The position numbers and the translations under genes are program-made. From a virus: DNA of 32,472 bases. Location: positions 1 to 32,472 of IMG/VR virus record IMGVR_UViG_3300009073_000030, one strand, 5' to 3'. The notes beneath the pieces were generated by a model. It did not search any database and was not told where the DNA came from. It saw only the letters and a program-made list of their open reading frames with translations. Every line of letters starts with the position of its first letter. Position 1 is the first letter of the stretch. This document shows, in pieces, positions 1,497 to 19,017 of the stretch.

Positions 1497-1534
1497 AATA
1501 CTTTACGATACCCCGTGATACGCTGGGATATCCT
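1497..1534. repeat. Phased GATA array, site A (candidate partition/operator site)
   Basis: Four ATA cores occur at exact 10-bp steps (1498, 1508, 1518, 1528): AATACT, GATACC, GATACG, GGGATATCCT. The same design recurs at 2508-2535, 3860-3937, 5505-5586 and 13266-13304. One-helical-turn spacing puts all copies on one DNA face, as expected for cooperative binding by a ribbon-helix-helix protein such as the product of 2862-3185. Here it would lie between the candidate promoter and the methyltransferase gene. Confidence 0.55.
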
Positions 1535-1546
1535 AATGCAGAGACG

Positions 1547-1578
1547 AGGGCGAAGCTGGAGATATCCAACTTCGCCCT
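1547..1578. other. Stem-loop with 9-bp perfect arms
   Basis: AGGGCGAAG (1547-1555) and CTTCGCCCT (1570-1578) are perfect inverted repeats around a 14-nt loop that contains another GATATCC. No T-run follows on either strand, so it is not a classical rho-independent terminator. It could be part of site A or a leader structure of the methyltransferase mRNA. Confidence 0.4.
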
Positions 1579-1673
1579 GGGGCGAATTCTGACCTCCCCC
1601 CATCGACCGGGAAAAAGTTACGGTCGCTCGCCACCCTTTCGGGCAAGCGAACCATAATGGTAGACCTCTTTAA

Positions 1674-2507
1674 ATGACCTCAATGGAATCCGCGCCGTTT
1701 GCCGAACCTGTTGCACCATGGCTTGGCGGAAAGTCACGGTTGGCAAAAACAATCATCGATAAAATCAGTGCGATCGAACACGGCATTTATGCCGAACCGT
1801 TTGTTGGGATGGGTGGCATATTCCTGCGCCGCACTATGCGTCCGAAATCGGAGGTCGTGAACGACCTGAATGGTGAAATCATCAACCTGTTCAGGATTCT
1901 GCAGCGGCACTACCCGCAGTTTATCGATCACTTGAAATTTCAAGTAACCAGTCGGCGCGAGTTTGAGCGTCTGCGTGTTACCGACCCCAAAACATTAACC
2001 GATCTAGAACGCGCTTCCCGCTTTCTGTACCTGCAACGTTGCGCATTTGGCGGTAAGCCTGACGCTACATTCGGGGTATCCCCCAGCACCCCTGCCCGGT
2101 TTGATCTGAGCAAGATTGGTCAAAGTCTTGAAGCTGCACACGAGCGGTTATCGGGCGTTGTCTTTGAATCATTGCCCTGGGCAGATTTTATCGATCGATA
2201 TGACAGTCCGCAGACGCTGTTTTACCTCGACCCGCCTTACTGGGGCGGTGAGATGGACTACGGGAAGGGCATGTTCGATCGTTCGGAGTTTCGAAAAATT
2301 GCGCGAAGGCTGGAAGGCATAAAGGGTACGTGGCTCCTATCGATCAACGACACGCCCCAGATTAGAGAGCTGTTCGAAGGGTTTCATCTGGAGCCACTTC
2401 ACGTCAGCTATTCGATAGCGCGAACACGATCACCTACAGACCCAAAGGCGAAACCGGCAAAAGAGCTGCTGATATCGCCCACGCCTATTGTTTCAGGATT
2501 TCTGTAG
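1674..2507 (+). CDS. D12-class (Dam-like) DNA adenine N6-methyltransferase
   Basis: 277-aa enzyme predicted to transfer a methyl group from SAM to N6 of adenine in a short DNA site. The SAM-binding motif I is YAEPFVGMGG at about residues 39-48 and the catalytic motif IV is DPPY at 186-189 (FYLDPPYWGG). The order I, recognition domain, IV is that of the alpha/Dam family, and length is normal for it. The N-terminal PWLGGKSRLA fits the family's PxxxxGGK-type N-terminus. No restriction endonuclease partner is adjacent, so it looks like a solitary phage methylase that could protect against host restriction or mark replication and partition sites. Base composition is visibly lower in GC than its neighbours, suggesting separate acquisition. 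The ribosome site is weak; a second ATG at 1683 is possible. Target sequence cannot be read from the protein. Confidence 0.85.
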   Translation: MTSMESAPFAEPVAPWLGGKSRLAKTIIDKISAIEHGIYAEPFVGMGGIFLRRTMRPKSEVVNDLNGEIINLFRILQRHYPQFIDHLKFQVTSRREFERLRVTDPKTLTDLERASRFLYLQRCAFGGKPDATFGVSPSTPARFDLSKIGQSLEAAHERLSGVVFESLPWADFIDRYDSPQTLFYLDPPYWGGEMDYGKGMFDRSEFRKIARRLEGIKGTWLLSINDTPQIRELFEGFHLEPLHVSYSIARTRSPTDPKAKPAKELLISPTPIVSGFL

Positions 2508-2535
2508 GATACGCTTGAGTATCTCAAGATATCCT
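2508..2535. repeat. Phased GATA array, site B
   Basis: GGATAC, GTATC and GATATCC cores are centred near 2510, 2521 and 2530. A palindrome CTTGAG-TAT-CTCAAG (2514-2528) lies in the middle. The site occupies the junction between the convergent methyltransferase and par-operon genes and overlaps the last codons of 2524-2865. It resembles sites A, C, D and E. Confidence 0.5.
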
Positions 2536-2865
2536 AAACATCGTAGGGAGTCCTGACTTCAGTCGGGTATTCTCGACGGCCTTATGCAGCTGGCGGGCGT
2601 AGCGTCTGGCAGACCGGGGCGAGCGCGCAATCATCAGCGCGGTGCCGATGAATGCATCGCTGCTATCGACCAGCTCGGCAAAGGACAGATCATCCATCTT
2701 GTCCAGGGCATGACCCGGATAGCCAAGCAACCGGCGCAGCTCGGATACGCAAACGCCATTCGCCCTGCCCTCGATCGCGATAATGGCAACGCGCAGCAGC
2801 AGTTCCGCGCCATCCCCATGCCGCGCATCGATCAAAGACAGGGGCTTGATCGGGGCAGGTGTCAC
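2524..2865 (-). CDS. Small protein of unknown function in the par operon
   Basis: 113-aa protein that I do not recognise. It is soluble and largely helical. Its central part (GVCVSELRRLLGYPGHALDKMDD) could form a helix-turn-helix, but this is weak. It is the third gene of a leftward operon after parA and the ribbon-helix-helix gene and overlaps the latter by 4 bp (ATGA), so it is probably translationally coupled. A role in partition or plasmid maintenance is inferred from context only. Its 3' end runs into phased repeat site B. Confidence 0.6.
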   Translation of the reverse strand: MTPAPIKPLSLIDARHGDGAELLLRVAIIAIEGRANGVCVSELRRLLGYPGHALDKMDDLSFAELVDSSDAFIGTALMIARSPRSARRYARQLHKAVENTRLKSGLPTMFRIS

Positions 2866-3185
2866 TCCCCTGCCCCGTTCTTTTCCTGATATGCGGCCAA
2901 CATCATCGCGAACAGCTTGCCATTCGGCACTTCCAGCTCGTCGCGGATCGCGATGAAAGCATCGCTGTCTTCCTCGCGAATCTTGAGATTGAGCTGCACA
3001 GGATAGCGCACGGCGGGTTTACGCTTCGCCCTGCCCTTCACGGCCCCTTCCCTACTCGTGAAGCCCTGCGCCTCGGCTGTGGCGTCCTGCACGGCCTGTG
3101 CGCCCTTGTCAGGCCGCTTCGCCGCTGTACCGGGCTTGATGTCGTCCAGATCGTCGATGACGATCGCTGCGCGCTTCTTGGCCAT
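2862..3185 (-). CDS. Ribbon-helix-helix ParB-like centromere-binding protein
   Basis: 107-aa protein with a basic, disordered N-terminal half (residues 1-58, rich in Lys/Arg/Ala). The C-terminal part fits a ribbon-helix-helix fold: strand PVQLNLKI, helix EEDSDAFIAIRDEL, turn, helix NGKLFAMMLAAYQ. This layout is that of small centromere-binding proteins paired with type Ib ParA ATPases (ParG, omega, RHH ParB), in which the mobile basic tail stimulates the ATPase. Its start overlaps the parA stop by one base, the expected gene order. Such proteins bind arrays of short repeats and repress their own operon. The 10-bp phased GATA arrays, especially the one directly upstream of parA, are the obvious candidate targets. 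Family assignment is from pattern, not alignment. Confidence 0.7.
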   Translation of the reverse strand: MAKKRAAIVIDDLDDIKPGTAAKRPDKGAQAVQDATAEAQGFTSREGAVKGRAKRKPAVRYPVQLNLKIREEDSDAFIAIRDELEVPNGKLFAMMLAAYQEKNGAGE

Positions 3186-3859
3186 CAGGCACCCTCCCCT
3201 ATCATTTTCAGTTTCTCGATCATCTCGGCAGCAAATGCGGCCGCATTTTCCGTTGCGGCGGCGATTCCGCTGACTTCACTTTTTGGCAAGTCTCGGACGC
3301 CTCCACCATAAGCGAACAATGCGCGATAGGCTGCGCGATCGACGATCTTGGTATCGAAGATCGGGATGCCCTGCCCTTCCAACTGGCCGCGAACGGCGCG
3401 CTCGTCGCGCGTGACGATCGCGGCATTCGCCCTAGTGAACAGCGCAGAATACGGTATCGGACGACGGACGCTGCGTTCCTGCATCTTGATCATCTTGATC
3501 GCCTCTGCCGCGCGCAGCGCGTCCACATGGCTGCCATTCATCGGCACCACCACGAAATCGCTGTTCGCGATCGCGGTGGCCATCATCAAGTTCTTGGACC
3601 CTTCCAGATCCACGATGACAAACTTCACCCGATCAACTTCCTCGAAGATTACATCGAGCATCGTATCCTCGGTGACATCGCCTCGAACAGTGATGCGCTC
3701 CACGTCATCGAGGCGGGACCATTCGACAAGCACCTTGTTCGGGTCTGCATCGATAATAGCGACATCCGCACCGCGATGCGCCAGTTCGGTTGCCAAGATC
3801 AGGGCGCTTGTTGATTTGCCGACGCCGCCCTTGGGCGAGGCAAAGGATATGATGGGCAT
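3185..3859 (-). CDS. parA: ParA-family partition ATPase (type Ib)
   Basis: 224-aa Walker-type ATPase predicted to move plasmid copies apart over the nucleoid. The deviant Walker A PKGGVGKST is at residues 9-17, the A' box IIDADP at 35-40, and Walker B FVIVDLEG at 80-87. There is no N-terminal HTH domain, so this is the short type Ib class that works with a ribbon-helix-helix partner, encoded immediately downstream. The ATG at 3859 is preferred over an in-frame TTG at 3892: it has AAGGA about 8 nt upstream, while the TTG falls inside the repeat array. The promoter region is filled by phased site C, which implies autorepression. There is no chromosomal-type ParB and no RepA/RepB pair, although the replicon uses a RepC-type initiator. 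Confidence 0.9.
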   Translation of the reverse strand: MPIISFASPKGGVGKSTSALILATELAHRGADVAIIDADPNKVLVEWSRLDDVERITVRGDVTEDTMLDVIFEEVDRVKFVIVDLEGSKNLMMATAIANSDFVVVPMNGSHVDALRAAEAIKMIKMQERSVRRPIPYSALFTRANAAIVTRDERAVRGQLEGQGIPIFDTKIVDRAAYRALFAYGGGVRDLPKSEVSGIAAATENAAAFAAEMIEKLKMIGEGA

Positions 3860-3937
3860 AGCGTATCCTTGCGATACTTTGGGATACGTCAAGATATCCT
3901 ATATCTTGACGTATCTTGCAATACCCTAGGATATCCT
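3860..3937. repeat. Phased GATA array, site C: operator/centromere upstream of parA
   Basis: Eight GATA/TATC cores are centred near 3865, 3875, 3885, 3895, 3903, 3913, 3922 and 3933, i.e. about one per helical turn. At the centre is a perfect inverted repeat with 15-bp arms, GATACGTCAAGATAT (3883-3897) and ATATCTTGACGTATC (3901-3915), separated by CCT. It abuts the parA ribosome site, so binding here should repress the operon. It is the longest and most regular copy in the window. Confidence 0.7.
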
Positions 3938-3945
3938 TAAACGAA

Positions 3946-3970
3946 GAAAGGGCGCATGATGCGCCCTTTC
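3946..3970 (-). terminator. Rho-independent terminator of the 5304-3997 membrane protein gene
   Basis: Perfect 10-bp stem GAAAGGGCGC (3946-3955) / GCGCCCTTTC (3961-3970) with a 5-nt loop. On the minus strand the stem is followed by a T-rich run (TTCTTCGTTT). It lies 27 bp after the stop of the membrane protein gene and before the parA operator, insulating the par operon. Confidence 0.7.
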
Positions 3971-3996
3971 CTCTTCATTCAAAGCTGTTGCCGCTG

Positions 3997-5304
3997 TTAC
4001 GAGGCCGCGCGCAGCATCTCGATTTGGCCGTTAGGCATTGCCATCGCCAATCCTTCACTGACCAGCTCGGCCCGTATGAGCTTGCCTGCCTCGTCTCCCC
4101 CTCCATATTTTCGCAGAGTGCTGAAGCTGGCGCTGGTCAGGCTTCCTGCCCGAGCATCTGCAAGAGCATTGGCGATCCGATCCGAGTGGCGCATTCGCGC
4201 GGCCTGTAACATCGGATCGTTGGAATCCGCCATCGAAACGACATTGCCCTGACTTAACCCGTCGCCCGCGATAGATGGTGCGCCACCCTGCCCTGTAATC
4301 GTTGCGGCAGCTTCGTTCTGCACCCGGTTACGTTCTCGGTTGATGGTCTGGGCTTGCCCTACGGTCATGGCGCGCAGGGACCGCGCACTACCGGCTTGCG
4401 TAGCGTAGCAGATGATCTCCAGAAAGATCGCGCAGAAGAAACCGAATGCCATCGCCGTCTGTGCCGCAGTCAACGGTCCACCAAAGCGTTCCGGAAGATA
4501 GGAGCCAACAATCGCGAGCTGCGTCTTGTGGGCATCGCCCTGGTCAATGATGCGTTCCTGATTGTTCGCGGCCATCGATACCGATCCAGACGCGCGCTGC
4601 GCACTGGATCGGGCGCGATCAACACCGAGCTCCGCTTCACGGATTGCCGCGAGGTACGGCGCGATGGCGGAAGGCCGCAACATCCATCCCTCGCCGTCTC
4701 GATCCTGAAGCGCCGCACGATCCTGATACGATTTCCAGCGATCGTTCGCATCGTCGCGAGCCTGAATGGCGCGGGACAGATCGGATGCGGCGGCATTGGC
4801 GATAGAGCGTTGCGCGGCAGTATCCTGCCGAGCATCCTGCGCGGCCACGGTCATCTGCGCGCTGCGGTCCATCCTCTCTTGAACGCCAACGCTGACGCCC
4901 ATGGCGGCGGTGAATATGGAAAACGCGATGCACCCTGCCATGCACAGGTCGAGAAACCAGTTCTCCCAGAGTTTCTTGGGCTGGTCTTCGTCAACATGCA
5001 GCGTTGCATCGAAGCGCAAGACCATCAAGACGCGCCCTGCAACGATGAAGATGGCGGCGATCCCCCAGTTCATCGCTTGATCAAGCGTCATTTGAAGGAT
5101 CGGGATCATGGTGTCACCGGGATGGCTAGGACTGATCGAAACCAGATAGCGACCGGCAAGGTAGAGGTTGATGATGGTCGCGACGACGATCATGGGGAAA
5201 GCGTTCTTGCGCCAGAAGCTCCGCTCCCACACGAAACGTTTCATGTCGCGCGCATCGTTATCGTCGATGGTTGTGCGAATGTCGCCGATGTCTTCACTTC
5301 TCAT
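3997..5304 (-). CDS. Multi-pass membrane protein with cytoplasmic coiled coil, unknown function
   Basis: 435-aa protein that I do not recognise. Hydrophobic segments are at about residues 36-56, 79-96, 117-140 and 280-303. Between the third and fourth lies a long Ala/Gln/Arg/Asp-rich helical region (about 145-265) likely to be a coiled coil. A charged C-terminal tail (about 310-435) ends in a region that could hold a small helical domain (SASFSTLRKYGG). It is leftward, between the 21-bp iteron array (its upstream region) and parA, and has its own terminator at 3946-3970. The ATG at 5304 is chosen as the first Met after the repeat array. A role in plasmid maintenance or superinfection exclusion is possible but unsupported by any motif. 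Confidence 0.65.
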   Translation of the reverse strand: MRSEDIGDIRTTIDDNDARDMKRFVWERSFWRKNAFPMIVVATIINLYLAGRYLVSISPSHPGDTMIPILQMTLDQAMNWGIAAIFIVAGRVLMVLRFDATLHVDEDQPKKLWENWFLDLCMAGCIAFSIFTAAMGVSVGVQERMDRSAQMTVAAQDARQDTAAQRSIANAAASDLSRAIQARDDANDRWKSYQDRAALQDRDGEGWMLRPSAIAPYLAAIREAELGVDRARSSAQRASGSVSMAANNQERIIDQGDAHKTQLAIVGSYLPERFGGPLTAAQTAMAFGFFCAIFLEIICYATQAGSARSLRAMTVGQAQTINRERNRVQNEAAATITGQGGAPSIAGDGLSQGNVVSMADSNDPMLQAARMRHSDRIANALADARAGSLTSASFSTLRKYGGGDEAGKLIRAELVSEGLAMAMPNGQIEMLRAAS

Positions 5305-5328
5305 GGTGTTGCCTCCGGGCAGGATCGG

Positions 5329-5496
5329 GTTGTCAAAAGATCGATTGAGGTTGGCAAAGGACGCCGCGCGGTTGTCACCAGATGGTTTGAAGTTGTCACC
5401 AGATGGTTTGAAGTTGTCACCAGATGGTTTGAAGTTGTCGGGTGGCAGCCAAGAGTTGTCTCGCGATAGCTTTTGGATGTCAGATGATGGACAGAG
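5329..5496. repeat. Tandem array of eight 21-bp iterons
   Basis: Units start at 5329, 5350, 5371, 5392, 5413, 5434, 5455 and 5476, exactly 21 bp apart. Each starts GTTGTC (GTTGGC in unit 2, GATGTC in unit 8), and most have GAT at unit positions 11-13. Units 3, 4 and 5 are identical. 21 bp is two helical turns. The array fills the gene-free stretch 5305-5635 together with phased site D. Its position upstream of the membrane protein gene and about 600 bp from repC suits either an operator or a replication/incompatibility iteron set. All frames through it are open only because 21 is a multiple of 3, so I do not call a gene here. Confidence 0.85.
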
Positions 5497-5504
5497 ATCA
5501 TCTC

Positions 5505-5586
5505 GGGATATCTTGTGATGATCTGTGACAATCCGAAGATATCCCCGTCATGTCGCAACATATCCTGTGATATCTCGGGATATCCT
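5505..5586. repeat. Phased GATA array, site D
   Basis: GATATC/CATATCC cores start at 5507, 5538, 5559, 5569 and 5579, with degenerate copies near 5517, 5528 and 5549, so the 10-bp phase is kept across about 80 bp. It directly follows the 21-bp iterons and precedes the 3' end of the ASCH gene (5636). It is probably bound by the same protein as site C at parA. Confidence 0.6.
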
Positions 5587-5635
5587 GCATTCATCACGGC
5601 ACGGCATGGTGTTGTCGGAAGGGCAGGGCGTGACA

Positions 5636-6097
5636 TCATGGGTTCCAATTCCAGAAACCTTGAGCACCGCGCGCCTCCCTTGGAGGATCATAGGGCTCGA
5701 TATCGACGAGCGGCCACGCCCAGTTCGCGTGGTTGTCGCGGTCACTATCGTTCAAAATGCCTCCGAACTCTTCTGCGATGCGTTCGGAATTCATGAACGG
5801 CTCCTGAAGAACCGCAGTGCCAAGAACCGCAGCGCGCCAGAGAGAACCGGGCGCTGTCAGCCATCTTTCAAGGTGGGGCAGGGCATCATGATGGAGCGCG
5901 GTTGCCCACGCTTCGTCAGATTTGAGCCGCAAGATCAGATCGGCGATCTCTCTCTTTCTGACCGGACGCGCGCCCGCGTGGATAGCGATGCGCTGGCCGA
6001 TGATTGATTGATGTGCAGGCCACCCCCTGAATTCATAGGGTTTGCACCCGAGAATGATCAGGGATGCCCATGGTTGCCAGATTGTCAGTGCTTTCAT
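5636..6097 (-). CDS. ASCH-domain protein
   Basis: 153-aa protein starting with the typical ASCH opening KALTIWQPWASLIILGCKPYEFRGW, followed by a beta strand with IAIHAG and ending in WAWPLVDIEP, a common C-terminal ASCH signature. ASCH domains have a PUA-like beta-barrel and bind RNA or modified nucleosides; some members are ribonucleases or amidohydrolases acting on N4-acetylcytidine. The exact role here is unknown. The ATG at 6097 overlaps the repC stop by 4 bp (ATGA), making it the last gene of the leftward repC operon, so it should be co-expressed with the initiator. Longer in-frame upstream extension runs across repC in another frame and is rejected. Confidence 0.75.
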   Translation of the reverse strand: MKALTIWQPWASLIILGCKPYEFRGWPAHQSIIGQRIAIHAGARPVRKREIADLILRLKSDEAWATALHHDALPHLERWLTAPGSLWRAAVLGTAVLQEPFMNSERIAEEFGGILNDSDRDNHANWAWPLVDIEPYDPPREARGAQGFWNWNP

Positions 6098-7308
6098 GAT
6101 GCCCTCATGTTGCCAGCGAGGCCGAATATTGTCGGGGATAAGTGGAGCTGGCCGGTCGCGGCCTTGCGCACCATCCCGCGCAGGAAACCGCCGACACTCT
6201 TGCGTATTTCTCCCCGGTTTTTCCGGGCATCCGCGATCAGGATGCACAAGGCCGCACCCTCTCGACCAAGGGTGCCGCACGCCTCGCGCCATGCATCCTC
6301 GCTGATGCCCAGATCGGGGCGAAGGAGGGCGGCGGCTTCGACCATCCCGCGCCAGCCGGGGGTGGTTTGCATCTCGAATGCCTGCACGAAGGACGGCGAT
6401 GCCGCCCTAAGCGCCATCTCGATAGGAATGCGCTCTATTCCGGTGTTTTTTTCAGGTGCGGACGGTCGATTTTGCTTGTGCCGGTCCCGCTCGCACTGAT
6501 CATTTCCCAAGCAATGCGGCGCGTCAGCGCCGTTCTTTTGAAAATGACTTCGTCGGCGACTAGCCGACACCGCATGATCGTTGTCCACAGGACGACTACA
6601 GTATTCCGAAGGAATAGAATCGCTTGTAGTAGTATTAGGTCTGACAAAAGAGTCCGACGTGTCCGACTCTTTTGTCAGACTGACTGTCTGTTCTCCACAG
6701 GTCAGAGCCGCTGCGAGTGCCTCAAGCGCATCGACCAGAGCAGACTTGATCGCATCCAGACTGCCCACAATGCTCCGCTGGAAGCGCGTAGGAACACCCT
6801 CAATCGCGCGTGACAGGGTGTCTGCAATCGCGCGGGGGAGGGCGTCAGGGGCAGACAGCGCCCCCTCTGCCTGCCCCTTGAGCGCCCTGATTTCCTCCCA
6901 TATCGAGCGCGTCTGGCGCTTGTCATGACGGCGTTCATCCCCGTCAGGATGCTGCGCCGTGATGGCGGGAGAAAGGTCGATGCCACGGGCAAAGCGCCGC
7001 TCGCCCGTGTTTCGATCCAAGAGGCCGGGGGAGCGTGCCCCGCGCGATCCGACGCGCCGGGTGATCAATCCGGCCTCTTCGAGCTGGTGGATGTGCCGGT
7101 TCAGGCTGCGCGGCGTGATGTCGAGATCGAGGGCGAGAAAGTTCACGCTCTCGAAGCACAGCGGGGTCGCGCCATCCCCCCAGTCGCGGATCGGCGTTGT
7201 CCTGGCCATCGCCTCGTATGTCGCGCGGGCACCCTTGGAGATGATGCCAACCTGACAGGCGATCTCGACAGACCGATAGGCGCGGTTTTTGCGGGTTTGA
7301 GGCGTCAT
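6094..7308 (-). CDS. repC: RepC-family plasmid replication initiator
   Basis: 404-aa protein. The N-terminal part (about residues 1-110) carries a winged-helix DNA-binding region with TPRSLNRHIHQLEEAGLITRR, then RFARGIDLSPA, the RepC-like transition. The middle (about 110-300) is low in conservation and is encoded by DNA full of dyads. The C-terminal domain has the RepC pattern EAWREACGTLGREGAA...RKSVGGFLRGMVRKAATGQLHL. RepC initiators of alphaproteobacterial repABC replicons act in cis at an origin inside their own gene. Here repA and repB are missing and a separate ParA/RHH pair does partition, so this is a solitary RepC. ATG 7308 overlaps the previous gene (ATGA). It is the eighth of nine overlapping genes, so initiator supply is tied to translation of the genes before it. 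Confidence 0.8.
   Translation of the reverse strand: MTPQTRKNRAYRSVEIACQVGIISKGARATYEAMARTTPIRDWGDGATPLCFESVNFLALDLDITPRSLNRHIHQLEEAGLITRRVGSRGARSPGLLDRNTGERRFARGIDLSPAITAQHPDGDERRHDKRQTRSIWEEIRALKGQAEGALSAPDALPRAIADTLSRAIEGVPTRFQRSIVGSLDAIKSALVDALEALAAALTCGEQTVSLTKESDTSDSFVRPNTTTSDSIPSEYCSRPVDNDHAVSASRRRSHFQKNGADAPHCLGNDQCERDRHKQNRPSAPEKNTGIERIPIEMALRAASPSFVQAFEMQTTPGWRGMVEAAALLRPDLGISEDAWREACGTLGREGAALCILIADARKNRGEIRKSVGGFLRGMVRKAATGQLHLSPTIFGLAGNMRAS
6510..6700. other. Candidate oriV inside repC
   Basis: Dyads cluster within 170 bp of repC coding sequence. They are a CGGCGC/GCGCCG hairpin near 6515, GTCGGC-gacta-GCCGAC (6552-6568), ATTCC-gaa-GGAAT (6603-6615), and a perfect 16-bp inverted repeat GTCTGACAAAAGAGTC (6639-6654) / GACTCTTTTGTCAGAC (6665-6680). 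TTGTCCACA (6581-6589) is one base from the DnaA box TTATCCACA; TTCTCCACA (6691-6699) is a weaker match. The stretch is also the most AT-rich part of the gene. RepC-type origins are known to lie in the middle of repC, which fits. Confidence 0.6.
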
Positions 7309-7454
7309 GATGCACCCCCGATCATCCGCATGATCGTTTCCAAAACGAACAGAACGCATAAGACAGTCAGGACGACGACAACGAGGAAATCCCCGTTTGT
7401 CTCGACGCGAGGGGTCAGCCTGTGCCGCACCCTTTCAATGATGCGGCCCATCAT
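7305..7454 (-). CDS. Small single-pass membrane protein
   Basis: 49-aa protein: a basic N-terminus (residues 1-20) followed by one strongly hydrophobic helix (DFLVVVVLTVLCVLFVLETIM, about 23-43). Two consecutive Met codons at 7454 and 7451 are both possible starts; the first overlaps the upstream stop by 4 bp. It overlaps repC by 4 bp (ATGA). Seventh gene of the repC operon. Unknown function; no family recognised. Confidence 0.5.
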   Translation of the reverse strand: MMGRIIERVRHRLTPRVETNGDFLVVVVLTVLCVLFVLETIMRMIGGAS

Positions 7455-7642
7455 GATACCGCTCCCATCGTGATGGATATCCATGCGACGAGGCCGAGGG
7501 CGACCGGGACGGTGCCCATGGCGATGGTGGCCAGGCGCTCGAAATGGTTGACCGGCACCTTGCCCTCGATCTTGCGAAGGTAGCGGTGCAGGTGCCAGCA
7601 CCCGAAAAGGGTGAGGCTGATGGCGGCAAGGAGCTGTGTCAT
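7451..7642 (-). CDS. Small membrane protein
   Basis: 63-aa protein with two hydrophobic segments (about residues 2-15 and 38-58, IAMGTVPVALGLVAWISITMG) and a basic loop between them. The start ATG is preceded by AGGAAGG at good distance, inside a 21-bp stretch identical to the one before gene 7639-7977. It overlaps both neighbours by 4 bp. A longer frame upstream is a shadow of the next gene. Unknown function. Confidence 0.5.
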   Translation of the reverse strand: MTQLLAAISLTLFGCWHLHRYLRKIEGKVPVNHFERLATIAMGTVPVALGLVAWISITMGAVS

Positions 7643-7977
7643 GATCCACCGCCTTCCTGCGGTGCGTTCGCTGCCTTCAATAGTTCGTCGGCGTGGCAGG
7701 GCTGGTCGAGAGGGCACCAGCAAGCGAGGTTCTTGCCTCGCAATGTTGGCAACGCGGCAATAATCTTTCCCATGTAGCTTTCAGGATGCGGGCGGGGCGG
7801 ACATCCCTCATCGAGGCGCAAGGCGAACTGGCGTACGGCCTCTTTCGCACCTCCGAATTGTTCGATGCTGTAAGGATTTCCGAACATCGTGGAGCGATCC
7901 ACCTTCACGGTATTGGGGGGCATCCGCCATCCTTTGGTGCGCCGTAATTGTATGCGCTGGGGTGCATTATCGCTCAT
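7639..7977 (-). CDS. DUF4326-type protein
   Basis: 112-aa protein recognised by IQLRRTKGWRMPPNTVKVDR, then the TMFGNPYS motif and a C-terminal GKNLACWCPLDQPCHADELL with paired Cys/His. DUF4326 proteins are common in phages and plasmids. Their biochemical function is not established to my knowledge, though a nucleotide- or nucleic-acid-related role is often assumed. Its last codons (QEGGGS, stop) encode the ribosome site of the next gene. It overlaps both neighbours by 4 bp in the repC operon. Confidence 0.75.
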   Translation of the reverse strand: MSDNAPQRIQLRRTKGWRMPPNTVKVDRSTMFGNPYSIEQFGGAKEAVRQFALRLDEGCPPRPHPESYMGKIIAALPTLRGKNLACWCPLDQPCHADELLKAANAPQEGGGS

Positions 7978-8156
7978 GATCCACCGCCTTCCTGTGCGTC
8001 GGGCAGGGGCACGATCTGGAGGAGGGTGGCGTCGGGGTCGCCGCCGCGCAGGGCGGAGCCGATCAACACCGTCATGATGGCCGCGAAGGCCACGATGGCG
8101 AGGATGTTGATGAAGGCTGCAATGCGTGCGGGCAGGGCGGTTTCGCTGGTACTCAT
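7974..8156 (-). CDS. Small membrane protein
   Basis: 60-aa protein with one hydrophobic helix (about residues 12-36, AAFINILAIVAFAAIMTVLIGSA) and a short tail ending DAQEGGGS. That tail is shared with the C-terminus of the DUF4326 gene because both codon strings contain the same ribosome site for the following gene. It overlaps neighbours by 4 bp on each side. Unknown function. Confidence 0.5.
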   Translation of the reverse strand: MSTSETALPARIAAFINILAIVAFAAIMTVLIGSALRGGDPDATLLQIVPLPDAQEGGGS

Positions 8157-8635
8157 GCCGCACCGCCTTCCGTCTGCACGTCTCTAAGCGCATTTACTTG
8201 TGCGGTTTCTGCTTCGTCTGCGTCGTTGAAGACTTCCCACGATCCCTCGACCATTGTGCCGTTTTCGTCGCATTTGCTGGGAATGAACACGCCGTAGCGG
8301 TTTTGGTGCGGGGCGAGGGTCAGGCCAGATGTGAATGCGATGGTGTCCAGCCGTTCGGCTATGTGACCATCTTCATTTTTGAGCCATTCCTTAAGGTCGG
8401 AGATGCCTAATTCGGTGTCATCAGCCAACCAGTACAGCGGCTCGGCACCGTCCAGCTTGCGCAGGGCGGCGGCACCGGCGCGCAGAGCGGCCATGTCAGC
8501 TTGAGCTATGCGGGTAAGCTCGGCTTCATCCGCTTGGGAAGCGGCAACAAAGCCCGAGCTGATTTCTTTTTGAAGGCTATCTGCGTAGCCATCAATGACG
8601 GTTGCGCAGTCTTCAAGATGCGTCGGATTACTCAT
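8153..8635 (-). CDS. Unknown soluble protein of the repC operon
   Basis: 160-aa acidic, mostly helical protein that I do not recognise. The N-terminal half is Ala/Glu/Asp-rich with heptad-like spacing (possible coiled coil at about 25-65). It contains WLADDTELGISDLKEWLKNEDGH and a beta-rich C-terminal part with one Cys. It starts 8 bp inside the previous gene and overlaps the next by 4 bp, so expression is coupled within the leftward repC operon. Confidence 0.6.
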   Translation of the reverse strand: MSNPTHLEDCATVIDGYADSLQKEISSGFVAASQADEAELTRIAQADMAALRAGAAALRKLDGAEPLYWLADDTELGISDLKEWLKNEDGHIAERLDTIAFTSGLTLAPHQNRYGVFIPSKCDENGTMVEGSWEVFNDADEAETAQVNALRDVQTEGGAA

Positions 8636-9206
8636 GCCGCACCCCTTGCGCCGTCGTCATTTCCTCGATCCGGTCGGCCATCATCACGGCGCAGCGGGTG
8701 GCGGTGTCGCCGCCGGTGCTTGTCATGATGACCATGGCGCGGCCTATGGCGGTCAGGGCGATGACGGCCCATGTGCCGTGGCGGCGTTCCGGGGAATGGC
8801 GCGGCAGCTCGTCGAGCATCGGGCGTATGGCGCGCATTGCCTCGCGGTCGTTGCGGGCATGGGCGCAGGTCAGCATGGCGTGCAGGTGATCGGCCAGTTT
8901 GCCGTCCGGCTGCACCTGGCCTTCATTGGCCAACATGACGAAGGACAGGATGGCGCGACCGATCTGCTCGTCGCGGGTGCCATCGTCTCCCTTCATCGCA
9001 ATCATGTTGCGGGTCAGGCCGTCCAGCGCATCGAGCGCGATGCTGACCCATCCGGAGTCGTTCCAGAGGCCGTGCGATTGCTCTATGAACTCAAGATCGC
9101 GCTTGATGCTCCCTGTCAGGGCATCGACATTGTCGCCCTCGCCCTGGACGCGGCGCGACCATTCCGCGAGGCGGGTGAACAATTCGGCGGTTGTGATCTC
9201 CGTCAT
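8628..9206 (-). CDS. Unknown soluble helical protein
   Basis: 192-aa protein that I do not recognise. It is predicted helical throughout, with several regularly spaced amphipathic helices (TRLAEWSRRVQGEG, SIALDALDGLTRNMIAM, AILSFVMLANEG, AMLTCAHARNDREAMRAI). No catalytic motif is visible. The ATG at 9206 overlaps the previous stop by 4 bp (ATGA). The same frame stays open far upstream to 10112, but that extension runs through gene 9203-9541 and non-coding DNA with low-complexity composition and is rejected. Confidence 0.6.
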   Translation of the reverse strand: MTEITTAELFTRLAEWSRRVQGEGDNVDALTGSIKRDLEFIEQSHGLWNDSGWVSIALDALDGLTRNMIAMKGDDGTRDEQIGRAILSFVMLANEGQVQPDGKLADHLHAMLTCAHARNDREAMRAIRPMLDELPRHSPERRHGTWAVIALTAIGRAMVIMTSTGGDTATRCAVMMADRIEEMTTAQGVRHE

Positions 9207-9541
9207 GCCGCGTCCCTCCCCGTCATGGCGCAGGGTTGCGCGGGATGAAACGTCTGGCTGATGCCGCCGAACAGGCTGTCGCCGGAGCCTTTCAGCCAAC
9301 CGTCCTCGACCAGCTTTTCCACCGCTGCCGCATCCAGCTCGATCAGCGGAGTGCAGGCATGGGCGGTCGGGCCGTTCGGTGATTGCTCGATCAGGACGAT
9401 TCGCCCGTCGCGGATGGCCTGCATCGCGAAGGACAGCGCCTCGCGGCGTGCCGGTTCCTGCGCCTCCAGATAGGCGCGGGCGCGCGGAGTGATGGTCATG
9501 TCGTCGGGCAATCCCGCGACGGGGGGATGGGGTTCGGTCAT
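9203..9541 (-). CDS. First gene of the repC operon, unknown function
   Basis: 112-aa soluble protein that I do not recognise. It has a helical segment RARAYLEAQEPARREALSFAMQAIRDGRIVLIEQ followed by a possible small alpha/beta part. It is the promoter-proximal gene of the nine-gene leftward operon ending at 5636. The ATG at 9541 has GGGAGG about 11 nt upstream, but that ribosome site is the 3' arm of a 7-bp stem-loop (9553-9570), which suggests control of initiation. Confidence 0.55.
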   Translation of the reverse strand: MTEPHPPVAGLPDDMTITPRARAYLEAQEPARREALSFAMQAIRDGRIVLIEQSPNGPTAHACTPLIELDAAAVEKLVEDGWLKGSGDSLFGGISQTFHPAQPCAMTGRDAA

Positions 9542-9552
9542 GGATCATAAGT

Positions 9553-9570
9553 CCTCCCGGTATCGGGAGG
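9553..9570 (-). promoter_or_regulatory. Stem-loop sequestering the ribosome site of the repC operon
   Basis: CCTCCCG (9553-9559) and CGGGAGG (9564-9570) form a perfect 7-bp stem with a 4-nt loop. In the leftward transcript the GGGAGG Shine-Dalgarno of gene 9203-9541 is paired in the stem. Opening it would permit translation of the first gene and, through the chain of overlaps, of repC. Confidence 0.5.
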
Positions 9571-10401
9571 GCCGCGTCGATCAGGCCGGGGGCGCGAGCC
9601 TCCGGTGCGAATCGGTTGGAATGTCGGGCCGGGGCCGCAGCCTGTGTCGGTCGGTCATTCGTCGCGTGCCCTCTTGTAGGCGTTTGCGAAATTCCGAATC
9701 GCCGCTTTTCAGACGGCGACCCGGAGGCGGGAGCTGAAAACCTGACAAGACAGGCCCGACCTGTTCCCCCGAAGGGTATTCTATTCGGACGGACTCCCGC
9801 CCCAGTCCGAAAGAATGGCCGGGGGAGGATGGCCCGCGATGACGGTGCGGGGCCGCTTGTCGAGTTTTCAGCTCGTGCTCCACCTGTCATTTTTTTTACC
9901 GCGTGCGTCAAGGGAAAACCGTCACGGGATGCCATGACGCATCCATGACGCGGGCGGGACGCCGGGGGCGGTATCGGGATGATGCGTGTCTTTTCAGCGC
10001 CCTGCGGGGCAGGGCGGGCACATAAGGTAATCTGTGAACTCATCTTCGCTCTCCATGAGAGCAGGCAAGCCGGACCCGTTCGCTCGAAAGCGTTTTTTCT
10101 TGCGGGGTCCATCGAAACCTGTAGGGTGAGCGGCGATCAAGCGAGCTCGTCGTTACCGGACTTCTTGAGAGCCTCGGCTTTCTTTTGTTGGTGGTTTCGA
10201 CGGGCCTTTTTTTTGGCCGTCCGCCTGATCTCCTCCTCAATGGTTACGATGCGTCACCCGCGAGTCGGGCCACGTCCTTGGATTGTTCCTTTTCGTTAAG
10301 GGAATGTCACGGACAGATTGCAGATCTACTTGCTTGCCCTTGACGAGAGCGGCGCGGGCGCGAAGTGTCGGTGTGGGTTTTACACTGAACGGGGACGTAT
10401 C
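9571..10401. other. 830-bp stretch without a convincing gene
   Basis: Gene-free region between the leftward repC operon and the rightward gene at 10402; it must hold the operon promoter. Visible items: TTCGGAC/GTCCGAA inverted repeat near 9782-9810; T8 run near 9886; direct repeat CATGACGC near 9934-9953; a bulged GACGG(g)CC/GGCCGTC hairpin around a T8 loop near 10200; a short Lys-rich minus-strand reading frame near 10142-10255 with no usable start codon. Long frames crossing it have composition typical of non-coding GC-rich DNA. Confidence 0.5.
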
Positions 10402-11388
10402 ATGCTGGAAGCTATTGCAATTATCGGAGGGATTATTGCCGTCTATTTCTTGATCCGCGCGCTGCTGGGGCTGTTCGCGCCGGGCATCGGGGTCAAGGCC
10501 GGTCAGCCGACGCCGTCGCGTCTTCATGTATTCGGGAAATATATGGGGCTGTGCTTTGTCGCCTCCTTTGTCGCGAATATCAGCGGCGTTCTCCTGTCGG
10601 GCGAGCCTCTGGTGCCAGAGCAAGAGCCGGTCGCGGTTGCGGCGGTCGAGCCGGAACCGGAGCCAGTACCGCGCACCCGCGCCGATGTGTTTGCCGATAT
10701 CAATGCGGCGCTGGTGACGTGGGATTCCGGACAGGGCGCCATTATGGACGGGGCGGATACGATCTCTGCCGATCTGGAAACGAGGTTTCTGACCGAGGCG
10801 GCAAAGCAAATCGTGGCCACCTTTTCCGCGCTTGCTGCGGACGGTGTCCAGGACAAGCCGGTCAGGATGGCCATGACATTGGGAGAGGAGGGCGACGATC
10901 CGCGCGAAACCGTCTCGCTCGAATGGCCTGCCGAGGTCGTGGCGGTCATTACTGGCGACATGACCTACAAGCAAGTGATGGATCGGGCGACGATCACCGA
11001 TGCCGGAACGTGGCCGGGTGGCGATTTGCGTGAATACTGCCAGATGTTCAGGCGCGATTCGGAACAGCTATGCGCGCAGTTCGATGCGCTGTGCCGCCCT
11101 CACCTCCGCTGCTGGGGCGAGGTTGCGCTTGGAACCGGGGAATTCAGGTGTGCAAGGGCCATCGAGCGCGCGGCGCAATACGGTCACGACTGGACGAACG
11201 GATGGCTGGAGGACAAGTTCACCCGCTATCTCTGGCAGGACGAAGAAGAGGGCGTCATCACGCTGATCGGCGACAGGATCAAACTCCAAAACGCTTTCGG
11301 GGCGTTCAGCAATTTCATTTACGATTGTGATTTCGATCCGGCGACCAAGATCGTGCATGACGTGCGCGTGGAGCAGGGCCGTCTTTGA
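10402..11388 (+). CDS. Membrane-anchored protein of unknown function
   Basis: 328-aa protein that I do not recognise. Two hydrophobic segments lie at about residues 3-22 (EAIAIIGGIIAVYFLIRALLG) and 46-64. They are followed by a Pro/Glu/Val linker (EPEPEPVPRTRADVF) and a globular C-terminal domain of about 230 residues with several cysteines (YCQMF, LCAQF, LCRPHLRCWG, YDCDF), so a secreted, disulphide-bonded domain is plausible. The ATG at 10402 is taken because GGGGAC precedes it and the hydrophobic start follows directly; an in-frame upstream extension adds only linker-like residues. It may affect the host envelope during lysogeny, but that is a guess. Confidence 0.6.
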   Translation: MLEAIAIIGGIIAVYFLIRALLGLFAPGIGVKAGQPTPSRLHVFGKYMGLCFVASFVANISGVLLSGEPLVPEQEPVAVAAVEPEPEPVPRTRADVFADINAALVTWDSGQGAIMDGADTISADLETRFLTEAAKQIVATFSALAADGVQDKPVRMAMTLGEEGDDPRETVSLEWPAEVVAVITGDMTYKQVMDRATITDAGTWPGGDLREYCQMFRRDSEQLCAQFDALCRPHLRCWGEVALGTGEFRCARAIERAAQYGHDWTNGWLEDKFTRYLWQDEEEGVITLIGDRIKLQNAFGAFSNFIYDCDFDPATKIVHDVRVEQGRL

Positions 11389-11438
11389 TCGAGGCGGGAT
11401 TGACCGCCCGCATACGATTATAAAACGATGAATAATCA

Positions 11439-11870
11439 TCATTCAGAACGGGACGGGCCTCGCGCGCTGTTCAATTCTGGGTCAAACTCGCCATAATTGA
11501 AAAAAATCAGCTCCTCGTACAGGGTGCCGATTGCCACCGCGCGGGCGTGGAATGTCGCCACGCGGCGGCGCTGTGCGAAGTTCGATTCAACCCGTTTGAT
11601 GGCCGTGGCGAGCAGGGCAAAATCTATTTTATTCGGGCCGCTCGGGGTGCCAAAAAAGGTTGCAACAGGCACATCTAAAACCTGCGCGATTTTCAAGAGC
11701 GTCAACAGGTTAGGCGGTGTTCCCCGCTTCATCGGCGATAACGCGCTGGAGGATAAATCCGCCTGTTCGAGCATCTCCTTTCGGGTCATGCCCGTGGTCT
11801 TACGACGCCGCTCGATTTCATCCAGTATCGTGTCCAGCACGGACTGGGTGGGGTCTATGGGTTGCATCAT
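11439..11870 (-). CDS. XRE-family (CI-like) transcriptional repressor
   Basis: 143-aa protein with an N-terminal helix-turn-helix of XRE type (about residues 12-70: DEIERRRKTTGMTRKEMLEQADLSSS, then NLLTLLKIAQVLDVPVATFF). A C-terminal helical part could mediate dimerisation. There is no LexA/S24 peptidase domain, so induction is not by RecA self-cleavage. It is divergent from a small HTH-like gene at 11954 across 83 bp containing a central palindrome, the classic layout of a prophage immunity switch. It therefore probably maintains the lysogenic plasmid state by blocking the rightward early promoter and controlling its own. A second ATG at 11867 is equally possible. Confidence 0.75.
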   Translation of the reverse strand: MMQPIDPTQSVLDTILDEIERRRKTTGMTRKEMLEQADLSSSALSPMKRGTPPNLLTLLKIAQVLDVPVATFFGTPSGPNKIDFALLATAIKRVESNFAQRRRVATFHARAVAIGTLYEELIFFNYGEFDPELNSARGPSRSE

Positions 11871-11901
11871 TTATCACCCGTTAACTTTATTTATCGTCAC
11901 A

Positions 11902-11930
11902 AGCATAATACGTCATTATTGTTTAAACAA
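11902..11930 (-). promoter_or_regulatory. Repressor promoter
   Basis: On the minus strand, TTGTTT (11930-11925) and TATGCT (11907-11902) are separated by exactly 17 bp. The -35 is one half of the palindrome TTGTTTAAACAA (11919-11930). Transcription would start near 11895, about 25 nt before the repressor ATG. Confidence 0.55.
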
Positions 11931-11947
11931 ATAGTTCGACTGATAAT
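11919..11947 (+). promoter_or_regulatory. Early rightward promoter, probably giving a leaderless mRNA
   Basis: TTGTTT (11919-11924) and GATAAT (11942-11947, preceded by T) are separated by 17 bp. The expected start point 6-7 nt after the -10 coincides with the A of the ATG at 11954, and there is no Shine-Dalgarno, so the Cro-like mRNA is likely leaderless. Its -35 is the other half of the palindrome used by the divergent repressor promoter. Confidence 0.55.
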
Positions 11948-11953
11948 CGGACC

Positions 11954-12268
11954 ATGAGAACTAATTCGGAACATAATCCGGGCGATGTACGGACGGGTGG
12001 CGGTGGCAATGACTCCGTCGCCGTGCCATCGGATGCCGTCATGACGGCGGGGGATTTCAGAATTCCCTCGTCGCGCGAATTCGGGTTCTGGCTGGCTCTC
12101 GCGCTGGCGGAAAAAGGTGTCTCACAACGGCAGTTCGACGAGGCGCACGGCTTGGGTGAAGGCATATCCGCCGACATCATCGACGGGGCCATGTCGCCCA
12201 CACTCGATACCGTCGCGGTCATCTGCGCCTGCATCAACACGCTGCCTGATCGTGATGGCGCGTCATGA
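11954..12268 (+). CDS. Cro-like HTH protein
   Basis: 104-aa protein. After a polar N-terminus of about 40 residues it has FGFWLALALAEKGVSQRQFDEAHGLGEGISADIIDGAMSPTLDTVAVICACI, which fits an XRE-like helix-turn-helix (SQRQF / GISADIIDG / PTLDTVAVIC). It is the first rightward gene from the immunity region, opposite the repressor, so it is probably the Cro analogue that favours lytic development. The ATG at 11954 coincides with the predicted transcript start. The next gene overlaps by 4 bp. HTH assignment is from pattern only. Confidence 0.6.
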   Translation: MRTNSEHNPGDVRTGGGGNDSVAVPSDAVMTAGDFRIPSSREFGFWLALALAEKGVSQRQFDEAHGLGEGISADIIDGAMSPTLDTVAVICACINTLPDRDGAS

Positions 12269-12489
12269 CCAGGCCGATGGCGCTTCGCGAGCAACTCTTC
12301 CGTCTGTACCGCCCTTTTCGAAACCGGCTCCGCTGGATGGCCAGCAATGCGCTTTCAACGCAGCATCTTGAGGCCGCGTTGATCGAGCGCGAGGGGGTCA
12401 CGCACGAATATATCGAGGCTGAAAAAACCGTTCTGCCCCGGAGCCTCACAGGCCCCGCGACCATGATCGTGCGTCGGGAGACAGACTGA
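12265..12489 (+). CDS. Small basic protein of unknown function
   Basis: 74-aa protein, Arg-rich N-terminal half (RPMALREQLFRLYRPFRNRLRW) followed by a mixed helical part. It overlaps the Cro-like gene by 4 bp (ATGA), so the two are coupled early genes. No family recognised. A possible 14-codon peptide (12491-12535) follows directly after it. Confidence 0.5.
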   Translation: MTRPMALREQLFRLYRPFRNRLRWMASNALSTQHLEAALIEREGVTHEYIEAEKTVLPRSLTGPATMIVRRETD

Positions 12490-12548
12490 CATGGGCAAGT
12501 GCTGCCTTGTTCCGAAAAGCAATTTCCCCTTGTGAAAGGACAGGGTTA

Positions 12549-12957
12549 ATGAACTGGCAAAAAGTAGAGCCTATGCCGCCTCGGGCCACGAAGGGGCCAA
12601 ATATAATGGCATGGATGTTGGGGGGGGGGGCGCTCTCTAACCGTCACCCTCAATTCTCTAGCGCAGGCCGAGTATTTCGGCGATTCCGTGATCGGAGAGC
12701 GGTTCTCTGTCGATTGGGGATATCAGGATGGCTTGCCGCATCTGCGTCTCAAGCTTTGCAAGGATGGGGCGGTGCCCGCTATCAACTCGATGCGCGGTTC
12801 AGCGCGCCTCACGATGGAGTCTTTCGGCAGCGGACTGCCGGGAGACAAGACGCCCTCGGCACCCTGCGCAATCGTCGAACACAACGAGGAAGATGGCTCT
12901 CTCGTGATTGCGCTGCCCGAGGTTATGCGCCTTCCATACCTTGCGCCGAAACGCTGA
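12549..12957 (+). CDS. Early phage protein interrupted at an 11-G tract (frame-disrupted)
   Basis: From ATG 12549 the frame runs 27 codons (MNWQKVEPMPPRATKGPN...) into G11 at 12620-12630. As sequenced it then continues in a frame that makes low-quality protein to 12962. The convincing continuation, RSLTVTLNSLAQAEYFGD...IGERFSVDWGYQDGLP...ending LPYLAPKR, is in the next frame and ends at 12957. With one G fewer the two parts join into one 135-aa protein. A gene caller would report only an internal start at 12688. Either the tract is phase-variable or slippage-dependent, or it is a homopolymer sequencing error. A purine-rich AAAGGACAGGG precedes the ATG. I do not recognise the family; it reads as a soluble beta-rich early protein beside the methyltransferase-like gene. 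Confidence 0.55.
12620..12630 (+). repeat. Homopolymeric G11 tract
   Basis: Eleven consecutive G, located 71 bases after the ATG of the gene at 12549. G10 would restore the reading frame. Confidence 0.9.
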
Positions 12958-12968
12958 TCTGATCGAAA

Positions 12969-13532
12969 ATGGGCAAGCGCAGCTCCTTTGACAAGCTCAA
13001 TGAACGGGATTTCCACCCGACCCCGCGCAAGGCGGTGTTGCCCTTGCTACGCCACCTGCGCGGGGTCCGGCGGTATATCGAACCATGCGCCGGGAATGGC
13101 GCACTGATCGGGCACTTGCGCTCGCTGAAAAAGCTCGAATGCGTCTACGCCTGCGATATTCAGCCGATCCGCCTCGGTGAGATCATCGAAAAACGCGATG
13201 CGATGACGCTGACCGGCGACGATCTGGGCGATGCAGACGCCTTCATCACGAATTTTCCTTGGACAAGGATACGCAAGGATAACTCGGGATATCCTTTGAT
13301 ACCCTTAATCGAGCATTGTTCGTCGCTGTTGCCGACGTGGACGCTGCTGGATGCGGACTTCATGCACATACAGCTTGCAGCGGGCGTGATGAAGCGTTGC
13401 GCCAAGGTCGTTTCGGTCGGGCGGGTCCGCTGGATCGAGGGCAGCGACAGCGACGGCAAGGATAACGCCTGCTGGTATCTTTTTAACGACATCGAGCGCC
13501 GAACGCGCTTTGTAGGAAGGCAAACCGCATGA
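12969..13532 (+). CDS. Short SAM-dependent DNA methyltransferase-like protein
   Basis: 187-aa protein with motif I YIEPCAGNGALIGHL (about residues 36-50), acidic motif II at ACDIQP (61-66), and a motif IV variant ITNFPWTR at 93-100. The expected NPPW/NPPF catalytic box has Phe in place of the first Pro. This looks like a compact phage N6-adenine methyltransferase without its own recognition domain; the altered box may mean changed specificity or reduced activity. The bases just after motif IV (13266-13304) contain phased array site E, so this segment serves both as coding sequence and as a probable protein-binding site. It overlaps the next gene by 4 bp. Confidence 0.65.
   Translation: MGKRSSFDKLNERDFHPTPRKAVLPLLRHLRGVRRYIEPCAGNGALIGHLRSLKKLECVYACDIQPIRLGEIIEKRDAMTLTGDDLGDADAFITNFPWTRIRKDNSGYPLIPLIEHCSSLLPTWTLLDADFMHIQLAAGVMKRCAKVVSVGRVRWIEGSDSDGKDNACWYLFNDIERRTRFVGRQTA
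13266..13304. repeat. Phased GATA array, site E, inside a coding sequence
   Basis: GATAC, GATAA, GATATCC and GATACCC start at 13268, 13278, 13288 and 13298, exactly 10 bp apart. It is almost superimposable on site A and lies 9.4 kb from parA, within codons 100-113 of the 12969 gene. Confidence 0.6.
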
Positions 13533-17841: not shown

Positions 17842-18157
17842 TTACGCCCGAAAAATCAGAATGCGACGGCTATATGAGCGGTGGCAGCGCGAGCAATTTG
17901 TGCGGATGCGCGGCTATTCCTGTTCGCCAACCTTTAAGATCACCCCGCGCGATCCGCGCGGATGCGGTCGATTTTTTTGCCGAGGTCCTCCCTCTCTATC
18001 CTTTCCAAGATTGAGCTTTTCACAGGATCGATCCATCGGGACGATCCTGCTTTTACCCCCGGATGATCGTCCCGAAATCGGGATGATCGGGACGATGTTC
18101 TTCCGTTTGCGCGAGGCGCGGCACGGCTCCGGTTTTTGTGACCCTGACGAAAAGTGA
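17831..18157 (+). CDS. Possible small basic protein overlapping the helicase end
   Basis: 108-codon frame starting 11 bp inside the helicase gene after GAGGG. The first 45 residues (MFSNYARKIRMRRLYERWQ...) look protein-like and basic. The remainder runs through the 11-bp iteron region and reads poorly (RGPPSLSFPRLSFS...). It may be a short real gene whose 3' part is low-constraint, or only a coupled open frame. If it is not a gene, 17842-18252 is a 411-bp non-coding stretch holding mainly iterons. Confidence 0.3.
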   Translation: MFSNYARKIRMRRLYERWQREQFVRMRGYSCSPTFKITPRDPRGCGRFFCRGPPSLSFPRLSFSQDRSIGTILLLPPDDRPEIGMIGTMFFRLREARHGSGFCDPDEK

Positions 18158-18359
18158 CCAAGCCCCGAAATCGGGACGATAGACCCCCAAATCGGGACGA
18201 TATCGGGACGATGCCGGGACGATAAAGCCAGCGAAACTGGGGCATCGGGACGATGGGACGATTTTCTGTGACTAACGCGCGTGAGTCTAATTCTTCTAAT
18301 CTCTTTATGCGAAGAGATAGGAAATATCGTCCCGATCATCCCGAAGGGATAGGGACGAT
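18035..18359. repeat. Array of about 13 iterons ATCGGGACGAT in both orientations
   Basis: Direct copies start at 18035, 18077 (GATGAT ending), 18086, 18170, 18191, 18202, 18213 (GCCGGGACGAT), 18244, 18252 (GATGGGACGAT) and 18349 (ATAGGGACGAT). Inverted copies lie at 18066, 18326 and 18335. Units 18191/18202/18213 are head-to-tail at exactly 11 bp. Pairs of opposite copies form strong hairpins, for example 18066-18087 and 18326-18359. The array spans the helicase-NusG junction and enters the 5' part of the NusG-like frame. It is a candidate lytic origin for the primase-helicase, or an operator/antitermination site. Confidence 0.8.
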
Positions 18360-19017
18360 ACCGGATGATGATCTTCACTGGTATGTCGGGCTGGTCGCCT
18401 CGAACCCGGCCATTGGTGGCGAGGCCAGCATTCTGCGGCGATATCTGCCGGAAGGGTCTAGTGGTGCATTGCGCGAAGAGCGCGCGGCCTCGATCATCGC
18501 CCATGCCGGTCGGGATGAGGACGTTCAGGTCCGGGTGCCGATCTATCGCCGCGATCCGAGGGTGCGTTCGCCGGTCGGGCGCAAGCGGATCAGCGAGCGG
18601 CTGGTAATCTTCAGCGGATATCTGTTCATGGGCGTCCCATCGGGTTGCGATCCTCGTGCCCATGGGTTCGCGCCGGATGTGCGCAGCGTTCCTGCATTGA
18701 CCGGGTTTCTTAGTGAGCTCTATGGCACGAGAAGACTGCCGAAACGGCTTTCGAGTTCGGTCATAACGCGGCTATGCTTCGAGGCCGATGTTGGGACATT
18801 CGATGAAACCCGCGAATCGCGGCGGGTTCGGGCCAGCAGGCTGAAAGCCGGGGCGACGGTCTCTATTGCGGCAGCCCATCCTTTTCTTGCTGGCGAGATC
18901 AGCGAAATCGAAAAAATTGATGGGGAGGGGAGGGTGCATCTCACCATCGGTCGGGTGCGGGTTTCCCTCGCTCCGGAGGAGGTTTCGATGGTCGATGGGG
19001 AGGGTGCGGGCCGATAG
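18253..19017 (+). CDS. NusG-family transcription elongation factor (specialised paralogue)
   Basis: Up to 254 aa. An NGN-type domain starts at WYVGLVASNP (about residue 43), with the family strand RLVIFSGYLFMGVP and VRSVPALTGFL. A C-terminal KOW-like part (about 200-250) is LKAGATVSIAAAHPFLAGEISEIE...VHLTIGRVRVSLAPEEV, matching NusG's GDxVRIxxGPFxGxxGxV pattern. NusG paralogues (RfaH, LoaP, phage-borne types) bind RNA polymerase and suppress termination in selected operons. It stands alone directly upstream of the packaging and morphogenesis genes, so late-operon antitermination is the natural inference. The start is uncertain: ATG 18253 lies within an iteron, ATG 18307 has no clear ribosome site. 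A near-palindrome GACTAACGC/GCGTGAGTC (18270-18287) lies between the two. Confidence 0.7.
   Translation: MGRFSVTNARESNSSNLFMRRDRKYRPDHPEGIGTIPDDDLHWYVGLVASNPAIGGEASILRRYLPEGSSGALREERAASIIAHAGRDEDVQVRVPIYRRDPRVRSPVGRKRISERLVIFSGYLFMGVPSGCDPRAHGFAPDVRSVPALTGFLSELYGTRRLPKRLSSSVITRLCFEADVGTFDETRESRRVRASRLKAGATVSIAAAHPFLAGEISEIEKIDGEGRVHLTIGRVRVSLAPEEVSMVDGEGAGR

Follow-up and report, generated by a model that had tools for sequence, protein, structure and literature searches.

A probable type Ib partition system of a RepC phage-plasmid with 10-bp phased RRGATAYCCT arrays at five sites

The delta/omega system of plasmid pSM19035 is a type Ib partition system with a small ParA, an RHH ParB and short contiguous direct/inverted repeats, and the replicon carries several separate parS arrays that overlap promoters (PMC9499535, PMC5016525). 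The viral locus reported here, with its predicted RHH partner, is alike in all these respects. The repeats of pSM19035 are 7-bp WATCACW and its genes are transcribed separately (PMC9499535, PMC5016525), whereas the viral locus has 10-bp RRGATAYCCT units, an overlapping parA-RHH gene pair, fewer units per distant array, and one array that is intragenic. Activation of the ATPase needs at least four contiguous repeats in pSM19035 (PMC9499535), so that the three-unit arrays of the viral locus are possibly too short for this function; they may be weak centromeres or operators. The ParFGH system of TP228 likewise is of type Ib, has a small ParA and the RHH protein ParG in one operon, and has a centromere 5' of the operon that is built of direct and inverted repeats; unlike the viral arrays, this centromere is single and continuous with AT-rich spacers, and dispersed sites are not described (PMC5016525).

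In the prophage-plasmid N15, the centromere sites IR1-IR4 are scattered in the genome (PMC5016525), and the viral record resembles it as a phage-plasmid with several scattered candidate sites (PMC7205306, PMC5016525). However, the Sop system is of type Ia, SopB is not an RHH protein, and the N15 sites are single inverted repeats, not phased arrays (PMC7205306). The parallel to N15 drawn in the original prediction holds for layout only, because the N15 ParB partner has another fold (HTH-type SopB versus the 107-aa RHH-like protein predicted here); the RHH system of pSM19035 is a closer precedent. Plasmid pAMI4 of Paracoccus aminophilus is similar in being an alphaproteobacterial replicon with a distant extra parS: its 3parS locus lies 11.5 kb from the rep/par genes, is bound, and is essential for proper partition. 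It differs in being of the RepABC type, with a RepB that is not RHH and parS that are not phased short-unit arrays (PMC9040568). Plasmid pMARC3 of Paracoccus marcusii, likened here by description only, has a ParA classified as type Ib, a small ParB and repeats at the parA promoter, but these are three 13-bp repeats at one place (PMC3832669).

The window analyzed here is the whole IMG/VR record IMGVR_UViG_3300009073_000030, a linear sequence of 32,472 bp that is probably an incomplete fragment. This virus record encodes terminase, portal, head protease, capsid E, tail tube, primase, SSB and a D5-type helicase, together with the replication and partition genes listed in Table 1. Having RepC and ParA besides phage genes, it is read as a phage-plasmid, which probably persists as a small DNA circle inside the bacterial host; the RepC family suggests that the host is alphaproteobacterial. 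Among 50,697 phage records, RepC gave a single match, which is short and partial. Protein family scans gave no confident assignment for the 435-aa protein, and an automatic scan for promoters and terminators returned no more matches than in shuffles.

Table 1. Coordinates of the arrays and genes in the 32,472-bp window
Feature	Position	Strand	Basis
Site 1: ACGATACCCC GTGATACGCT GGGATATCCT	1505..1534	+	
D12 adenine methyltransferase gene, between sites 1 and 2	1674..2507	+	domain match
Site 2: AGGATACGCT TGAGTATCTC AAGATATCCT	2506..2535	+	
113-aa ORF following the RHH gene directly; overlaps site 2 at its 3' end	2524..2865	-	
Predicted RHH centromere-binding protein, 107 aa	2862..3185	-	
parA: small ParA/VirC1-type ATPase, 224 aa, deviant Walker A KGGVGKS	3185..3859	-	
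Site 3: about 8 units immediately 5' of parA, densest array	3860..3937	.	
Perfect inverted repeat in site 3, 15-bp arms (3883-3897 / 3901-3915), CCT centre	3883..3915	.	
435-aa predicted protein, upstream of parA; site 4 in promoter region	3997..5304	-	
Site 4: about 5 units, gapped	5505..5586	.	
RepC-type replication initiator (RP-C N- and C-terminal domains)	6094..7359	-	domain matches
XRE-type repressor-like protein	11439-11870		
Methyltransferase-like gene hosting site 5	12969..13532	+	protein family scan, homolog alignment
Site 5: four units within the methyltransferase-like CDS	13266..13305	+	

We consider it probable that these features form a type Ib parABS system of a RepC phage-plasmid, in which the RHH protein acts on the phased units, site 3 is the main site and the others are additional. 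A scan of the sequence together with chain counts located dispersed phased arrays at all five places where they had been predicted. The 10-bp phasing stands, and the proposed GATAC core is broadened to GATAY within a unit, repeated at 10-bp steps, whose consensus is RRGATAYCCT. At least one palindromic strong unit, RRGATATCCT, occurs in each array; in sites 1, 2, 3, and 5 it mostly has the weaker GATAC units to its left, and weak-weak-strong is the commonest unit order. Site 1 has an extra weak unit at 1495. Core pairs spaced exactly 10 bp number 11 in the window vs. 0.4-0.55 in Markov sequences of order 2 and 3 (highest count among 100, 4), so phased pairs are not equally frequent in randomized sequence, and starts of dense clusters number 16 vs. 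about 0.5. Strict chains, defined as at least three cores at 10 +/- 1 bp with one skipped unit allowed, occur six times in the 32-kb window and twice in 1,310,636 bp of DNA lying away from parA in related loci. The control rate is 0.05 per 32 kb, and the window lies about 120 times above it; this excess, and the unit shared by the extra sites, agree with the distributed site set originally proposed. Isolated strong words are found at 1559, 7474, and 13758, outside the arrays and unphased.

The ParA protein matches the Pfam families VirC1/CbiA/AAA_31. It has no N-terminal HTH domain, since KGGVGKS begins at residue 10 and leaves no room for one. The start of the RHH gene overlaps the parA stop. 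Its product has an N-terminal GFTSRE motif, a strand region at 63-69 (QLNLK), and helices at 71-84 and 88-103. The predicted structure is a C-terminal strand-helix-helix with a pLDDT of 97-98 over the helices, and the top fold neighbors are CopG, TacA, and Arc, with weak E-values (E > 0.8), probably because the RHH domain is short. Neither a PDB sequence search nor an NCBIfam scan with the RHH alignment was informative, and the window proteins scanned included no member of the ParB/SopB family. R45 of GFTSRE, a putative ATPase-stimulating arginine at the N-terminus, shows a conservation of 90% or more among 38 relatives. The small ParA, the downstream predicted RHH protein, the conserved arginine, and the upstream repeat centromere candidate are the features of a type Ib system, and both the family matches and the predicted fold are in line with the type Ib-like ParA and RHH-type partner anticipated from the sequence. 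The locus does not look like RepABC: the RepC gene lies apart from the parA operon, and a Pfam scan of the ParA partner gave no match.

A tblastn search of plasmids with the RHH protein returned five records, and in all three that were inspected the match lies directly behind the ParA gene. A scan of genome contigs then provided 80 ParA loci, nearly all of which have behind them a small partner with GFxSRE and a QxNxK-like strand. Related ParA genes on plasmids likewise have a small partner immediately behind them in nearly all loci inspected; in several related loci this partner is annotated as a 'stability/partitioning determinant'. In about 80 related plasmid loci the ParA-RHH pair is accompanied by a 10-11-bp phased array immediately 5' of parA. 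Compared with control regions from the same loci, 6-mers repeated upstream of parA are enriched 7.5-fold at a spacing of 11 bp and 3.4-fold at one of 10 bp. The commonest repeat word in the relatives is AGCTATC/GATAGC. Others are GATATC (the window, L043, L053), GAATTC (L006, L050, L052), AAGCTT/CAGCTG-like words (L005, L030, L035, L044), and GGAACC (L002, L068). The Pseudomonadota plasmids L087, L089, L091, and L092 share with the window a ParA of 47-51% identity, an RHH partner, and a phased array upstream of parA, but such plasmid pairs mostly have AGCTATC/GATAGC at 11-bp steps and arrays only at the par locus. In the viral contigs, single-protein searches with RHH, ParA, and RepC brought up no relative, a terminase search led to distant phages only (none of nine window proteins, terminase excluded, matched those loci), and the pattern GATACN5GATACN5GATATCC gave five matches, about the rough chance estimate, none near a ParA gene. 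The phage-like plasmid L104 from Sulfitobacter lacks an annotated ParA.

Alternate strand residues of RHH proteins such as Arc, equivalent to positions 64, 66, and 68 here, point into the DNA. The similarity of repeat words tracks identity at these three RHH positions with a partial Mantel r of 0.50 (permutation p 0.001), in a test on pairwise identities that is corrected for ParA identity and not fully for shared ancestry. K68, N66, and Q64 rank 1, 2, and 4 of 95 RHH columns (partial r 0.41, 0.38, 0.31), and the best of 206 ParA columns, with a partial r of 0.29, is below all three. Since the repeat word covaries with Q64, N66, and K68, the RHH protein is likely the reader of the arrays, and the array upstream of parA is likely a type Ib centromere and operator. 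The phased centromere candidate predicted at this place thus gains from both its recurrence in about 80 relatives and the covariation of its word with the RHH strand.

We infer binding, ATPase stimulation, partition, autorepression, and use of the distant sites, and propose the following mechanism. Dimers of the RHH protein would line up on the 10-bp phased units, with the beta-ribbon residues Q64, N66, and K68 reading RRGATAYCCT. Site 3 would serve as the main centromere and as the operator for autorepression of the par operon by the RHH protein. Sites 1, 2, 4, and 5 would bind further RHH protein and extend the partition complex across 12 kb; sites 1 and 4 may also have an operator function, site 1 for the D12 methyltransferase and site 4 for the 435-aa gene. 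Site 3 is not the longest array, as had been thought (site 4 is longer but gapped), although its perfect palindrome is present as described. Long near-perfect palindromes are also centered in the parA-upstream arrays of L031 and L011.

The most serious competitor to this mechanism holds that only site 3, perhaps with site 2, is a working centromere, and that sites 1, 4, and 5 are operators or leftovers, for example array fragments spread by recombination, without any role in partition; we regard it as rather unlikely. It draws on the relatives, most of which have their arrays confined to the region upstream of parA: a self-similarity scan of 78 loci places them there in nearly all. Some relatives have an additional array just 3' of the RHH gene. 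The position of site 2, which lies 3' of the parA-RHH genes and is flanked by convergent gene ends, resembles this second position, and sites 1, 4, and 5 are extra. Outlying clusters in L060, L062, L077, L085, and L017 lie within about 2 kb of parA. Clear arrays farther away, out to 9.4 kb, are found in the window alone, as four distant clusters between -9.5 and +2.3 kb of parA; for this comparison, 72 loci extended 9 kb or more to one side, and distant arrays could be missed in relatives because these are often contig fragments. In the Cupriavidus relatives L060 and L062, several AGCTATC-type arrays extend over about 1.8 kb, about 0.6-1.8 kb upstream of parA, which is dispersion in a milder form. 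Several of 14 loci flagged as dispersed were dismissed by eye as low-complexity or barely above threshold, the non-array examples being L058, L070, AmM1, L003, and L088 at -39695.

The small size of sites 1, 2, and 5 (3-4 units each) and the position of sites 1 and 4 in promoter regions fit this restricted reading as well. Site 1 occupies the 1319-1673 gap 5' of the D12 methyltransferase gene, and roughly 200 bp separate site 4 from the 435-aa gene downstream of it. This interval holds 3.3 copies of a perfect 21-bp repeat, GTTGTCACCAGATGGTTTGAA, at 5371-5439. The predicted regulation of neighboring genes is only partly supported, because three of the five sites (1, 3, and 4) are in promoter regions, one is between convergent genes, and one is intragenic; it is possible for sites 1 and 4 and unlikely for sites 2 and 5. 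Against a role of site 3 alone, the strong RRGATATCCT unit is common to all arrays, mostly in the weak-weak-strong order, which drift would erase.

Site 5, which does lie within a coding sequence as predicted, also speaks against that reading: being intragenic and not at a promoter, it is unlikely to be an operator. It codes for a 7-residue in-frame insertion directly after motif IV, which is missing in four of five homologs, while the fifth has a shorter insertion in the same loop. The absence of this insertion from most homologs argues that the array is kept for its DNA and is not a coding by-product. Motif IV reads NFPW in this protein vs. NPPW in all five homologs, and for this reason the methyltransferase-like enzyme may be impaired.

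Systems of the type Ib parABS kind are known; what is unusual is the dispersal of arrays over 12 kb and the intragenic array. Only tentatively do we extend the favored mechanism to a distributed type Ib RHH centromere of at least 12 kb, with one array intragenic, that couples partition to the control of phage genes and is read through a short code between RHH strand and repeat word. The element would offer a testable example of a dispersed RHH centromere in a phage-plasmid, which has to coordinate partition with its lytic switch. Across the wider family, RHH strands and repeat words are naturally paired many times over, always with the array in the same place, and a recognition code and incompatibility groups could be predicted from these pairs.

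A lysogeny regulon, in which a different phage regulator (for instance the XRE-type repressor) would use the arrays as its operators, appears very improbable. Several sites are intergenic and a repressor-like protein is encoded, yet no array adjoins the repressor gene and the densest one touches parA. Moreover, ParA-RHH pairs occur with this array architecture in about 80 loci that differ widely in their gene content, and the repeat word covaries with strand residues of the RHH protein. A role as replication iterons of RepC or the D5-type helicase module, which the direct, phased repeats of a plasmid-like RepC replicon might suggest, has hardly any likelihood: save one unphased GGATATCC at about 7474-7475, no array is in or beside repC, relatives with quite different initiators retain arrays at parA, and an iteron-like cluster of GGGACGAT at 18.0-18.4 kb, beside the helicase gene, is better suited. 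Recognition of the arrays by a GATATC methyltransferase was rejected, as it leaves the 10-bp phasing unexplained.

The cluster beside the D5-type helicase gene, at 18026-18360, comprises about ten copies of GGGACGAT/ATCGTCCC, several of them within an 11-bp unit, ATCGGGACGAT, and is a candidate replication origin with iterons.
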